20,399 nt of DNA from a virus. A program made the position numbers and the translations under genes. This document shows, piece by piece, positions 14,242 to 20,217 of this stretch. Numbering within the stretch: the stretch's first letter is position 1; each line of letters starts with the position of its first letter. The notes under the pieces are model-generated. The model did not search any database and had not been told where the DNA came from. It saw nothing but the letters and a program-made list of their open reading frames with translations. Location of the stretch: the IMG/VR virus record IMGVR_UViG_3300017758_000199, positions 1 through 20,399 of that record; one strand, written 5' to 3'.

Positions 14242-16128
14242 ATGACAGTAGAAGAACTCTACGGAGACTTTATCCATAAGTCCCGATACGCAAGATATTT
14301 AGAAAACCAAAAGAGACGAGAGACATGGCAAGAGACTGTAGATCGATACATCGATTTTATGTCGACCAAGGCTCCGGCTATAACCCAAGAAACTTGGCAA
14401 GAAATAAGGCACGCTATCATTACTAAGCAAGTAATGCCTAGCATGAGAGCCTTAATGACTGCAGGTCCTGCATTGGACCGAGACAATACCTGTGGCTATA
14501 ACTGTTCTTATTTGGTCGCTGATGACCCCAAGGCCTTCGACGAGGCTATGTTCATACTTATGTGTGGTACAGGTGTGGGCTTCAGTGTTGAGAGACAATA
14601 TATTAATCAGCTTCCTGAAGTCCCTGAGCGCCTCTTTGCATCTGATACTGTAATTAAGGTATCTGACAGCAAAGAAGGATGGTCCAAGGCCTTTAGAATG
14701 CTGATAGCGCTGCTATATGCAGGTGAAAAACCAAACTGGGATGTCACCAAGGTACGTGCAGCAGGTGAACGGCTAAAGCAGTTCGGAGGCAGAGCCTCAG
14801 GACCTGAGCCGCTGGTAGACTTGTTTGAGTTTACTGTGAACCTGTTCAGCAATGCCAAAGGACGTAGACTCTCTTCGATTGAATGCCATGATCTGTTTTG
14901 TAAGATAGGTGAGATTGTAGTCGTTGGGGGAGTTAGACGCTCAGCGATGATTAGCCTGTCCAACTTGACTGATGACCGTATGCGTCATGCTAAGTCAGGC
15001 GAGTGGTGGAACCAGAATAAACAGCGAGCACTCGCTAACAACTCAGTGTCGTTTACTGAGAAGCCTGATGTAGGTGCATTCTTACGTGAATGGACTTCAC
15101 TCTATGAGAGTAAATCAGGTGAGCGAGGTATCTTCAACCGCGTTGCAAGTCAAAAGCAAGCGGAGAAGTATGGCAGGAGAGATCCTAACCATGAGTTCGG
15201 CACAAATCCGTGCAGCGAAATAATTTTACGACCATACCAGTTCTGTAATCTGACCGAGGTCGTCATAAGACCCGAAGATGACAAAGATAGCCTCTGTAAG
15301 AAAGTGAGACTCGCAAGCATCTTGGGCACTATTCAAGCGACGCTAGTCAACTTTCCGTACTTGCGTCGAGTGTGGGAAAAGAACACTGCTGAAGAACGAC
15401 TACTAGGTGTATCGCTTACAGGTATCATGGATAACAAACTGATGAACTCGGTTACTGAAACAGCCAAAGATACGTTAGAAGCTATGCGTGTTGCAGCAGT
15501 ATCAGCAAATGCCGAGCATGCAGATATGTTAGGTATTCCGCGATCAACAGCCATCACTTGCGTTAAGCCAAGTGGTACTGTTAGTCAGCTGGTCGATGCA
15601 GCCTCAGGTATTCATACGAGGCATAGTGACTTTTACTTCCGCACAGTGCGTGGAGACAATAAAGATCCTTTGACACAGTTCATGGTCGATCAAGGTATCC
15701 ACGCTGAACCTGATGTAATGAACCCTGAAACAACTACGGTGCTAACGTTTCCAATAATGTCACCACAGGATGCAATTACGCGTGAGAACCTTACGGCTAT
15801 TGAACATCTGGAACTATGGAAGATGTATCAAGAGTTTTGGTGCGAACACAAACCATCGATAACCATTAGCGTACATGAACACGAGTGGCCTGAAGTTGGC
15901 GCTTGGGTGTTTAACAACTTTGACGATATTTCAGGTATTTCGTTTCTGCCACACGACGGCGGCAGCTACAGACAAGCACCATATCAAGAAGTTGAATACG
16001 AGGACTACTTAGAGATGGCAAACCTGTTTCCAAAGAAAATAGAGTGGAACGACATGGTCGAAGAAGAAGACACAACAACAGGCTCACAAGAGTTAGCGTG
16101 CAGCTCAGGCAGCTGCGAAATTATGTAG
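14242..16128 (+). CDS. nrdJ: Class II (adenosylcobalamin-dependent) ribonucleotide reductase
   Basis: A 628-residue reductase that makes deoxynucleotides for phage replication. Cys84 and Cys88 stand in NTCGYNCSY. The active-site loop has Cys324-Ser-Glu326 in GTNPCSEI and Cys335 in FCNLTEV, the same Cys-x-Glu and 11-residue spacing as Lactobacillus leichmannii NrdJ Cys408/Glu410/Cys419. ITCVKPSGTVSQL is the phosphate-binding loop. The C-terminus ends ELACSSGSCEIM, a shuttling Cys pair. Absence of NrdB-like or activase genes supports the B12-dependent class, so host or environmental cobalamin is needed. A T7-like promoter lies upstream. I see no ideal Shine-Dalgarno at 14242. Confidence 0.93.
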   Translation: MTVEELYGDFIHKSRYARYLENQKRRETWQETVDRYIDFMSTKAPAITQETWQEIRHAIITKQVMPSMRALMTAGPALDRDNTCGYNCSYLVADDPKAFDEAMFILMCGTGVGFSVERQYINQLPEVPERLFASDTVIKVSDSKEGWSKAFRMLIALLYAGEKPNWDVTKVRAAGERLKQFGGRASGPEPLVDLFEFTVNLFSNAKGRRLSSIECHDLFCKIGEIVVVGGVRRSAMISLSNLTDDRMRHAKSGEWWNQNKQRALANNSVSFTEKPDVGAFLREWTSLYESKSGERGIFNRVASQKQAEKYGRRDPNHEFGTNPCSEIILRPYQFCNLTEVVIRPEDDKDSLCKKVRLASILGTIQATLVNFPYLRRVWEKNTAEERLLGVSLTGIMDNKLMNSVTETAKDTLEAMRVAAVSANAEHADMLGIPRSTAITCVKPSGTVSQLVDAASGIHTRHSDFYFRTVRGDNKDPLTQFMVDQGIHAEPDVMNPETTTVLTFPIMSPQDAITRENLTAIEHLELWKMYQEFWCEHKPSITISVHEHEWPEVGAWVFNNFDDISGISFLPHDGGSYRQAPYQEVEYEDYLEMANLFPKKIEWNDMVEEEDTTTGSQELACSSGSCEIM

Positions 16129-16158: not shown

Positions 16159-17241
16159 ATGCCACCACGCAATCACAAAGCGTGGCTTAAAACACCTAAA
16201 ATAGAACACATCAGTTCGCTTATATATTCTGACTATGATTTGTATGAGCAAGAGATCGAAAAGATCTTCAGCAAAGTGTGGGTTCCTGTGTGTCACGAAA
16301 GTGAGCTACCTGAGGTAGGTCGTTTCCGTACATCACAAATTGCACACAAAACAATACTTATCGTTAATGAACAGGATGGAATACAGTCGTATCTGTATCA
16401 CAATCCAGGTGTCGTTAAAGTAGCAGGGTATGTTAGCGAACTTGATTACGCAGGCTGGGACAAGCTGCACACCGAAGTAAATTATGGCGGTATGGTATGG
16501 ACTACGTTAGATCGTAATCCAAGCCAAAGTCTCGAGCAGTGGTTAGATGGTGCCTTTGATTGTATCGATAGTGCCATCAACACTGAACCGCTTGAGGTAT
16601 TTCATTATCACAAAGCGATCATCGGTACTAATTACAAGCTATGGCACGACACAAACAGTGAATTTTATCACGACTTCATGCACTACCATAACCGTGTAAC
16701 TGGCTTTAACGATGCTTACTTTGCGCGCAAAAATATACCGTTCAGTAATGGACACGTGAACGTTAGCAGCTTCACCGTTAACTACGAAGAGTATGAAGGC
16801 TTTGAAGATAGAGGCGAGTTGTCGTTTCCTTCGCTGCCTCCTAACCAATGGTATATGGTCGATCTGTTCCCAGGCTTTAATTTTAACTTACGTGGCAGCG
16901 CGTATCGCTCAGATAGCGTTACACCGCTTGGCCCTGACAAGGTACTCATTGAATTTCGTGGGTATGGGTTGAAGAGCGACACACCAGAAGAACGAGCTAC
17001 TCGTATTGAACATCACAACTCTATTTGGGGACCATTCGGTAGAAACCTACACGAAGACCTAATTGGTGTTGCTGGTCAAGGTACGACGATGCGACCTGGT
17101 ACTGAACCTCGCAACATCTTACATGGGCGTCACGAAAATCAAACAATCCACGACGAAGTTGGTATGCGTCATTATTACGCTGAATGGAGTAAGTGGATGG
17201 GAGTAACAGCCGATGGGCAACAAGCGCGGCTTGTGGGATAA
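16159..17241 (+). CDS. Rieske-type oxygenase alpha subunit lacking the Rieske domain core
   Basis: A 360-residue member of the Rieske non-haem iron oxygenase family. The N-terminus matches (EIEKIFSKVWVPVCHESELP, VGRFRTSQI, TILIVNEQDG). The C-terminal catalytic domain is also present: NYKLWHD, then EFYHDFMHYHN with Glu168 and His171, and NLHEDLIGVAGQG with Asp300 as likely third iron ligand, ending RHENQTIHDE. Between Gly74 and Gly84 the usual ~45-50 residues with the CxH...CxxH cluster ligands are gone; only YHNPGVVKVAG, like the end of a CPYHxW...G segment, remains. The second His is also shifted: the family has H-x4-H, here His175 (+4) and His177 (+6). No [2Fe-2S] centre can be bound. Substrate unknown. 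It follows nrdJ by 30 bp and is read through a leader ORF. Confidence 0.82.
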   Translation: MPPRNHKAWLKTPKIEHISSLIYSDYDLYEQEIEKIFSKVWVPVCHESELPEVGRFRTSQIAHKTILIVNEQDGIQSYLYHNPGVVKVAGYVSELDYAGWDKLHTEVNYGGMVWTTLDRNPSQSLEQWLDGAFDCIDSAINTEPLEVFHYHKAIIGTNYKLWHDTNSEFYHDFMHYHNRVTGFNDAYFARKNIPFSNGHVNVSSFTVNYEEYEGFEDRGELSFPSLPPNQWYMVDLFPGFNFNLRGSAYRSDSVTPLGPDKVLIEFRGYGLKSDTPEERATRIEHHNSIWGPFGRNLHEDLIGVAGQGTTMRPGTEPRNILHGRHENQTIHDEVGMRHYYAEWSKWMGVTADGQQARLVG

Positions 17242-18849: not shown

Positions 18850-19090
18850 TTCGTGCCTCCAATAATTCATTAATTTTATTAATCGCAAAAGCAATAGACG
18901 TATATTCGCCGTGATCTATAAATGTCGAACCGTCTCGTTCATTAACAATATAAGAGTCAATGTGATACGGACCGCTTTCAGAACTACACACTTGAATATT
19001 AAAATTCTCATGATTGCGAATTTCAAAATGATCGTCTTCAACTGATGGATCATCGCTATGAATTAATTTTAATGAGTCAATATCGATCAT
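18836..19090 (-). CDS. Hypothetical protein
   Basis: An 84-residue acidic protein, not recognised. It appears to be a small beta-then-helix domain: strands around FEIRNHENFNIQVCS, YHIDSYIVNERDGSTFIDHG, then helix SIAFAINKINELLEA. GGAGA precedes the start, which overlaps the stop of the upstream micro-ORF (ATGA). Middle gene of a three-gene cassette. Confidence 0.65.
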   Translation of the reverse strand: MIDIDSLKLIHSDDPSVEDDHFEIRNHENFNIQVCSSESGPYHIDSYIVNERDGSTFIDHGEYTSIAFAINKINELLEARNAAK

Positions 19091-19188
19091 GACATGTCTC
19101 CAAATATCATTAACAAAAATAATACTTGAGCGAGTACGCCACCGATCAAAATCAATTCAAAAAGACCGATTAATAGTTGCTTAATCAT
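19087..19188 (-). CDS. 33-residue membrane micro-protein
   Basis: GAGGAGAT directly precedes this ATG, so a real start is likely. The product (MIKQLLIGLFELILIGG, then VLAQVLFLLMIFGD) is almost entirely one hydrophobic helix. It opens the third cassette, directly behind a bipartite element. Same size class and topology as the 17583 micro-protein. Confidence 0.6.
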   Translation of the reverse strand: MIKQLLIGLFELILIGGVLAQVLFLLMIFGDMS

Positions 19189-19203
19189 AGGTATCTCCTC
19201 ACA

Positions 19204-19240
19204 TAGTTATCCATTATGTGTTAAAAAAGGCGTTTGAATT
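19204..19240 (-). promoter_or_regulatory. Bipartite repeat element, copy 3
   Basis: Minus strand: AATTCAAACGC, 16 nt, TGGATAACTATG, then GAGGAG. Two substitutions from the consensus, same spacing. Confidence 0.55.
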
Positions 19241-19246
19241 TGAGCG

Positions 19247-19284
19247 AAAAAAAAGACACAAAACGACTAATGTCATTTCGTGTC
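19247..19284 (-). terminator. Terminator of the 19545 gene cassette
   Basis: On the minus strand, GACACGAAATGA pairs with TCGTTTTGTGTC around a short loop, followed by eight T. Confidence 0.82.
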
Positions 19285-19290
19285 ATATTT

Positions 19291-19545
19291 TTATACTTCG
19301 ATTTCTACATCAAAATCTTCAATGTGTTCATTGATTAAAATTTCGTAGAAATTATAAAGAATATCATTATATCGATCTGCATATTTATTATCTTCTTCGT
19401 CAGTCGAATTTTCGTCGACAGTCATTTCTTTATTTAATTTTATTGTAACAAAATTGACAACATCGTCATTATTACAAAAATCTGAATAATCGTTATTAGC
19501 TGCAATTGAATAGAAATATTTATAATCTTTAATATTGATAAGCAT
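19291..19545 (-). CDS. Hypothetical acidic protein
   Basis: An 84-residue, very acidic, Asn- and Tyr-rich protein (NNDYSDFCNNDDVVNFVTI, ENSTDEEDNKYADRYNDILY). No domain recognised. Such small acidic early phage proteins can be inhibitors or DNA mimics, but nothing here proves it. GGAGAATTAA precedes the start. A single-gene cassette with element copy 4 upstream. Confidence 0.65.
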   Translation of the reverse strand: MLINIKDYKYFYSIAANNDYSDFCNNDDVVNFVTIKLNKEMTVDENSTDEEDNKYADRYNDILYNFYEILINEHIEDFDVEIEV

Positions 19546-19563
19546 TTAATTCTCCAATTTTAT

Positions 19564-19601
19564 AAGTTGTCCAATAAGGCTTAAAATTGGCGTATGAAAT
19601 T
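19564..19601 (-). promoter_or_regulatory. Bipartite repeat element, copy 4
   Basis: Minus strand: ATAATTTCATACGC, 16 nt, TGGACAACTTATAA, then TTGGAG. Confidence 0.55.
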
Positions 19602-19605
19602 ATGC

Positions 19606-19644
19606 GAAAAAAAAGAGCGAAATGACTTTCGTCATCTCACTCTC
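19606..19644 (-). terminator. Terminator of the metallopeptidase cassette
   Basis: On the minus strand, GAGTGAGATGAC-GAAA-GTCATTTCGCTC (one mismatch, G-T pairs) is followed by eight T. Confidence 0.82.
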
Positions 19645-19650
19645 ATTTCA

Positions 19651-20124
19651 TTACGAAATCGCTTTCATAACTTTATCAATATACTTTTCTTGCATTTTTC
19701 TCGCTTCGATTTCCCATGGCAAATTACGATAACCTTCGTAATCTTTATTCGCATCAATATCATTATAATTCTTACCGTCAAACGTAACTGTCTTCTTCGA
19801 CTTTTGAATTAATTTCTTTGTCGCGTATTGTTGTGCATGAGTCATTTCGTGAATGATTGTCGAAACGATTTCTTTCAAATCATAACGACGAATATCGATC
19901 GCAATTTCTTTTGTCGAATTTTGATAATAACCGACACGAGATGCTTTACGAATATTTCTAACGAATAAATTTACGTTATCAACTTTGAAAATCTTTTTGC
20001 ATTCATCGAATGCTTTTACAAGATCATCAATATTCGCACGATAAAACTCACGAATTTCTTTAACGTCACATGCTACTGAACCAGTTGCAAATACGTCATC
20101 ACGAACTTCAATAAATTTTGGCAT
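19651..20124 (-). CDS. Zincin-type metallopeptidase-like protein
   Basis: A 157-residue protein with a HExxH zinc motif (IIHEMTHAQQYATKK) and, about 45 residues later, LPWEIEARKMQ, where a Glu could be the third zinc ligand. This pairing occurs in small phage and bacterial zincin-like proteins. It may cleave or merely bind a host protein; the substrate is unknown and there is no signal peptide, so it should act in the cytoplasm. The ATG at 20124 has CGGAGAATTAAA in front, the same site type as the 19545 gene, so the in-frame ATG at 20190 is rejected. Two tandem bipartite elements lie upstream, which is unique in the window. Confidence 0.72.
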   Translation of the reverse strand: MPKFIEVRDDVFATGSVACDVKEIREFYRANIDDLVKAFDECKKIFKVDNVNLFVRNIRKASRVGYYQNSTKEIAIDIRRYDLKEIVSTIIHEMTHAQQYATKKLIQKSKKTVTFDGKNYNDIDANKDYEGYRNLPWEIEARKMQEKYIDKVMKAIS

Positions 20125-20141
20125 TTTAATTCTCCGTTTTT

Positions 20142-20217
20142 TAGTTGTCCATGAAGAGCAATAATTTGCGTATGAAATTATCGTCTTCATTAAGTACTAA
20201 AATTTGCGTATGAAAAT
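20142..20217 (-). promoter_or_regulatory. Tandem bipartite repeat elements, copies 5 and 6
   Basis: Two ATTTCATACGC-type cores on the minus strand (about 20168-20178 and 20206-20216) stand exactly 38 bp apart. The proximal copy has the full TGGACAACTAA after 16 nt; the distal copy has a degraded version (TGAAGACGAT) at the same spacing. Confidence 0.55.

Follow-up and report, generated by a model that had tools for sequence, protein, structure and literature searches.

A phage-encoded methanesulfonate monooxygenase alpha subunit without its Rieske segment as the probable catalytic half of a split enzyme

The window, that is, the whole stretch of DNA analysed here, is a virus record of 20,399 bases, and its gene content is that of a podovirus-like phage. 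It encodes a single-subunit RNA polymerase, an integrase, a T7-like primase-helicase, a family A DNA polymerase and a 5'-3' exonuclease, together with a thymidylate synthase, a thymidylate-kinase-like protein, a MazG-like protein and a ribonucleotide reductase of class II type. Positions 19001-20000 have a GC content of 0.30 (about 0.44 in most of the window) and carry short minus-strand open reading frames; a metallopeptidase-like protein (19651-20190) lies in this low-GC region, its match to PF20573 being weak and below the cut-off. The gene under study is on the plus strand, next to the ribonucleotide reductase gene. The features are as follows:

14242..16128, + strand: ribonucleotide reductase, class II type, neighbour of the gene under study; not kept beside the gene in other phages
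16159..17241, + strand: Rieske-less methanesulfonate monooxygenase alpha subunit (MsmA), predicted catalytic half, 360 aa
16159..16380, + strand: residues 1-74, in which the N-terminal helix and the strands at the base of the former Rieske domain can still be made out (partial PF00355 match at 41-74, PDB sequence matches at 18-82, strands in the model)
16381..16476, + strand: residues 75-106, deletion junction, hypervariable (pN/pS 0.63)
16558..17202, + strand: residues 134-348, catalytic domain (pN/pS 0.087, synonymous sites near saturation)
16660..16683, + strand: E168-F-Y-H171-D-F-M-H175, the MsmA motif with a putative bridging carboxylate and two iron-binding His, in 159/159 viral homologues
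17056..17058, + strand: Asp300, third iron ligand, found throughout the alignment in full-length relatives (47/47) and Rieske-less copies (19/19)

The frame is uninterrupted over its 360 codons, as the earlier note on this DNA had stated. Its product scores 28.0 bits against PF00848, the catalytic domain, above the cut-off of 24.9. Against PF00355, the Rieske domain, it reaches 12.6 bits (cut-off 20.3) over residues 41-74 only, and the cluster motif is absent. The protein thus belongs to the Rieske oxygenase family and lacks both Cys-His pairs, in agreement with that first reading. A structure model built on 51 homologues (pLDDT 84, pTM 0.86) is predicted to have the fold of a Rieske-oxygenase alpha subunit; an earlier model from a shallow alignment (A1) had a pLDDT of 47 and was discarded. 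Comparison of a predicted structure with Rieske oxygenases had been proposed as a test of the fold, and the protein passes it, since residues 12-349 of the model align structurally with Rieske-oxygenase alpha subunits at a Z of about 32 over 315-325 residues.

Kinship is nearer to MsmA than to other oxygenases. The protein is 51-62% identical to full-length MsmA of the X26 type (about 415 aa with C-x-H-X26-C-x2-H, from Filomicrobium, Methylobacterium, Methylocella and others) and about 30% identical to X17-type proteins. Judged by sequence, it is the catalytic half of MsmA without the Rieske part. The earlier note had regarded the iron site as altered, with His171, His175 and His177 as ligands beside Asp300. 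That reading does not hold. E168-x2-H171-x3-H175 and D300 are identical in full-length bacterial MsmA: among 47 full-length relatives (43 MsmA of X26 type and 4 more distant proteins), E168 is conserved in 43, H171 in 46, and H175 and D300 in all 47. H-x3-H is therefore the normal MsmA motif, and the site was not altered in the lineage of the window protein. His177 is not conserved, being Phe in 17 of the 19 Rieske-less copies of the alignment and in many phages. Asp300 is retained, as the note had said. The window protein thus shares the E-x2-H-x3-H and Asp ligands with MsmA of Filomicrobium, Methylobacterium and the others, but differs from them in having no cluster motif.

Relative to full-length MsmA, some 50-55 residues that carry C-x-H-X26-C-x2-H are missing. 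The deletion junction maps to residues 75-106, close to the place given in the earlier note. Relatives of the protein are found in at least several hundred stretches of viral DNA. The suggested search for viral homologues with the same deletion was run on 158 extracted sequences, and none of the 159 proteins examined, window included, has the Rieske motif; with the MsmA-type Rieske segment as query, no match was obtained in viral contigs. EFYHDFMH is kept in all 158 homologues besides the window. Residues 75-106 vary in length and sequence among phages, whereas the catalytic domain is nearly invariant, averaging 92% identity with the first 80 viral relatives over residues 134-342. The hypervariable stretch may be either a remnant or a loop for host-specific docking. 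Among the viral homologues, pN/pS is 0.63 at residues 75-106 and 0.087 in the catalytic domain, a value for which synonymous sites are near saturation and which compares with 0.04-0.06 in three closer pairs. The gene is under strong purifying selection. The deletion was seen as evolved and not as decay, and its fixation in 159 viral homologues under such selection bears this out; because it is present in all of them, it is not an assembly error. A selected oxygenase homologue without a cluster must take its electrons from elsewhere, as had been proposed.

Among named relatives the closest is phage1322_61 of Puniceispirillum phage HMO-2011 (GU557055), which is 90% identical over 351 residues and is annotated as methanesulfonate monooxygenase alpha subunit. 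HMO-2011 is the only isolated phage with the gene, and its host is a SAR116 bacterium. Its MsmA lacks the same Rieske segment as the window protein, but its gene lies among structural and lysis genes and not beside a ribonucleotide reductase. Phages of the HMO-2011 type are described as dominant, broadly distributed marine viruses (PMC9038755). The absence of the Rieske motif from HMO-2011 MsmA and from many GOS and virome sequences was reported in 2015, in the sections of PMC4433239 used here, as was the finding that the host, IMCC1322, has two MsmA, of which only one has the motif. The corresponding sections of PMC4928673 (2016) repeat the proposed role of HMO-2011 MsmA in methanesulfonate oxidation and give no mechanism beyond it. 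In these sections of the two papers, a fusion with the complementary loss, co-occurrence and a split enzyme are not described. The missing motif was thus already known, and what is new here is a SAR116 fusion partner with the complementary loss, the co-occurrence of the two genes and their reading as a split enzyme.

Neither msmB, msmC nor a reductase gene was found alongside the Rieske-less gene in the window and the viral loci, and the fusion described below, msmB and msmC were likewise not found in viral contigs. Two viral matches to the fusion as query cover the reductase half only. A Rieske half elsewhere in the phages was considered and was not found in viral loci or contigs. The genes that flank viral Rieske-less msmA vary from phage to phage, so the nucleotide-linked role that had been suggested from the neighbouring genes is unsupported. 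An indirect link, in which formaldehyde as product would feed one-carbon metabolism and through it nucleotide synthesis, is speculation and only conceivable.

The Rieske-less protein also occurs in SAR116 bacterial genomes, in copies about 72-77% identical to that of the window. The locus there reads: a divergent transporter operon, a fusion gene of about 796 aa, msmB, msmC (Rieske ferredoxin), a gene for a 279-aa protein, and Rieske-less msmA. Some SAR116 genomes have the Rieske-less msmA beyond the transporter genes instead, and the msm locus of one complete genome (G025; 2,753,527 bases) has three additional genes in between. We take these three for the dmsABC cluster, which has been placed beside SAR116 msmA (PMC8547437). 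The 279-aa protein (L084:6953-7792 and equivalents, alignment A3) is conserved after msmC in the SAR116 split operons. Neither Pfam nor the PDB gave a sequence match for it, and the canonical msm operons that were inspected lack it; it could help to assemble the split enzyme.

The fusion is a second MsmA paralogue, in which a Rieske domain is joined to Pyr_redox_2 and Reductase_C domains (FAD reductase). It has an intact CxH-X26-CxxH and a degenerate catalytic part without equivalents of E168, H171, H175 and D300. The losses in the two proteins are complementary, the Rieske-less paralogue retaining the putative bridging Glu168 along with the iron ligands. All iron ligands are kept and the Rieske motif is absent in 19 of 19 Rieske-less MsmA (the window, 16 bacterial copies and two phage-like contigs in metagenome-assembled genomes (MAGs)), and the Rieske motif is kept and equivalents of H171, H175 and D300 are absent in 15 of 15 distinct fusions. 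The latter number is 15 and not 18 because three of the 18 rows (L162-L164) come from genomes already counted. Most fusions have gaps at 168-171 and 300 in the alignment; the two least degenerate have K at 168 and Q at 171. A stop or frameshift breaks the fusion gene of one SAR116 genome between the degenerate catalytic part and the reductase part (L167, near 15178), and this break could be a sequencing error or a fission. Two phage-like contigs binned into Rickettsiales and Hellea MAGs (L097 and L098) carry Rieske-less MsmA, and in one of them a large open reading frame resembles, by eye, a class I ribonucleotide reductase.

Among 61 SAR116-family genomes, the Rieske-less gene and the fusion occur in exactly the same 12, and neither occurs in the other 49, in which the matches are at most free-standing reductases; the 12 all belong to one bacterial family and are thus not independent. 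In two of them the fusion is incomplete, being fragmented over contig ends (G035) or interrupted in frame (G004). Outside the 12, one MAG (G011) has the Rieske-less gene and no fusion was seen; its contig stops inside msmB. The SAR116 genome MED-G04 encodes a canonical full-length MsmA with separate, unfused MsmB, MsmC and MsmD (msmABCD), and no Rieske-less copy was found there in the scan. A plasmid search with the fusion gave no match over 80% of its length; the matches listed cover the reductase half.

How two such paralogues could work together is suggested by the geometry of the family. Across the Rieske oxygenases, each cluster delivers electrons via a conserved carboxylate to the iron of the neighbouring alpha subunit, about 12 Å away. 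Cluster and iron of the same subunit are about 45 Å apart, which is why electrons pass between subunits (PMC12445004). Given transfer of this kind and complementary losses, two paralogues can form one working interface. Complementary halves on separate chains are present in the SAR116 relatives; the phage carries the catalytic half only. We therefore favour, at a probability of roughly 0.74, the reading that the product of the window gene is one half, the catalytic one, of a split methanesulfonate monooxygenase, in which the phage would supply the catalytic subunit and the host the other components. Under this model the catalytic half, the fusion and host MsmB would co-assemble, with the Rieske cluster of the fusion about 12 Å from the iron of the catalytic half, as in the normal inter-subunit arrangement. 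Electrons would run from NAD(P)H to FAD, possibly through the MsmC ferredoxin, to the Rieske cluster and on to the iron, and methanesulfonate, to judge from kinship and context, would be oxidised to formaldehyde and sulfite. During infection the phage would provide an extra or replacement catalytic subunit and draw the Rieske domain, MsmB, ferredoxin and reductase from the host, and would benefit by keeping up the flow of C1 units and energy from methanesulfonate. Of the earlier interpretation, the loss of the cluster and an outside source of electrons stand and the altered iron site falls; the identity as MsmA and a host-encoded partner had been missed.

Two known systems resemble the proposed enzyme and show that a Rieske oxygenase can function when divided. 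In the chlorophyllide a oxygenase of Micromonas each chain has lost the opposite site. It is similar in that one Rieske oxygenase is divided over two polypeptides, and different in being a eukaryotic pigment enzyme, unfused to a reductase; we know of no virus that carries half of it. Its two chains are described as acting together (PMC9615114, citing Kunugi 2013). In caffeine demethylation, NdmC has no Rieske cluster, and the cluster sits on the reductase NdmD (PMC4408171). As proposed here, a catalytic subunit without a Rieske domain is paired with a reductase polypeptide that carries the cluster, but the substrate and the branch of the family are others, and the SAR116 fusion also retains a degenerate catalytic domain. 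NdmCDE has a GST-like third subunit, NdmE; the SAR116 operon has the 279-aa gene, without a Pfam match.

Other readings of the gene are less probable. The phage protein might enter mixed oligomers with a full-length host MsmA and use its Rieske cluster, no split host enzyme being involved. The same inter-subunit geometry would serve (PMC12445004), and the catalytic domain closely resembles its counterpart in full MsmA. However, no scanned genome with full-length MsmA also has a Rieske-less copy, and the only isolated phage with the gene infects SAR116, a host with two MsmA, one with the motif, according to the sections of PMC4433239 cited above. We consider this reading unlikely. Still less probable is an oxygenase that works without any cluster, taking electrons directly from a ferredoxin or flavoprotein and possibly acting on another substrate such as a nucleotide. 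Phage loci in which no Rieske protein was found and the adjoining nucleotide genes in the window would fit it, but those neighbours change between phages, the catalytic domain has hardly departed from that of MsmA, and the relatives in genomes sit at an msm locus with a Rieske-bearing paralogue. We give slightly less credence again to a non-catalytic protein, either one that binds a ligand or a decoy or inhibitor that disrupts the assembly of host MsmA; the lost redox cluster and the variable loops would suit such a role, yet all 159 viral copies conserve the entire catalytic domain with Glu168 and the iron ligands (pN/pS 0.087, with synonymous sites near saturation), and a bacterial copy stands at the msm locus. 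An assembly artefact or decaying pseudogene, for which nothing speaks but the missing segment itself, is rejected as next to impossible, the same deletion being fixed, in open frames, in 159 viral contigs, one isolated phage and many bacterial genomes.

The split-enzyme reading could explain why marine-virus MsmA has no Rieske motif, an anomaly on record since 2015: the enzyme would be split, with the virus carrying one half. It describes a two-polypeptide oxygenase with complementary losses that is directly testable, and a metabolic phage gene that should work only with a host-encoded partner. For ocean surveys it advises caution, as a viral msmA would not be a complete methanesulfonate-oxidation gene.

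In the phylogeny the Rieske-less proteins form one group with full support, within or beside whose phage copies the bacterial copies form one clade. In quick trees the bacterial copies fall inside the phage copies, but a topology that puts every phage on one side is not rejected either (p-AU 0.535), and either virus or host may have lost the Rieske segment first. The fusion, on a long branch, is closest to the full-length MsmA of SAR116 MED-G04 and does not group with the Rieske-less copies, although a single clade of the two is not rejected (p-AU 0.187); a simple duplication in place is thus not demonstrated, as the tree does not show them as sisters. We offer only tentatively, as doubtful on balance, a history in which the Rieske-less subunit arose in phages, SAR116 took a viral copy into its msm locus, and the host MsmA then lost its iron site and was fused to a reductase. 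If this were true, bacteria would depend on a virus-derived subunit for an enzyme of the ocean sulfur cycle. In a Magnetovibrio MAG (L101:11714-12958, minus strand), a full-length MsmA operon has nearby an unfused reductase that is 52% identical to the reductase half of the fusion, an arrangement that is possibly a picture of the pre-fusion state.
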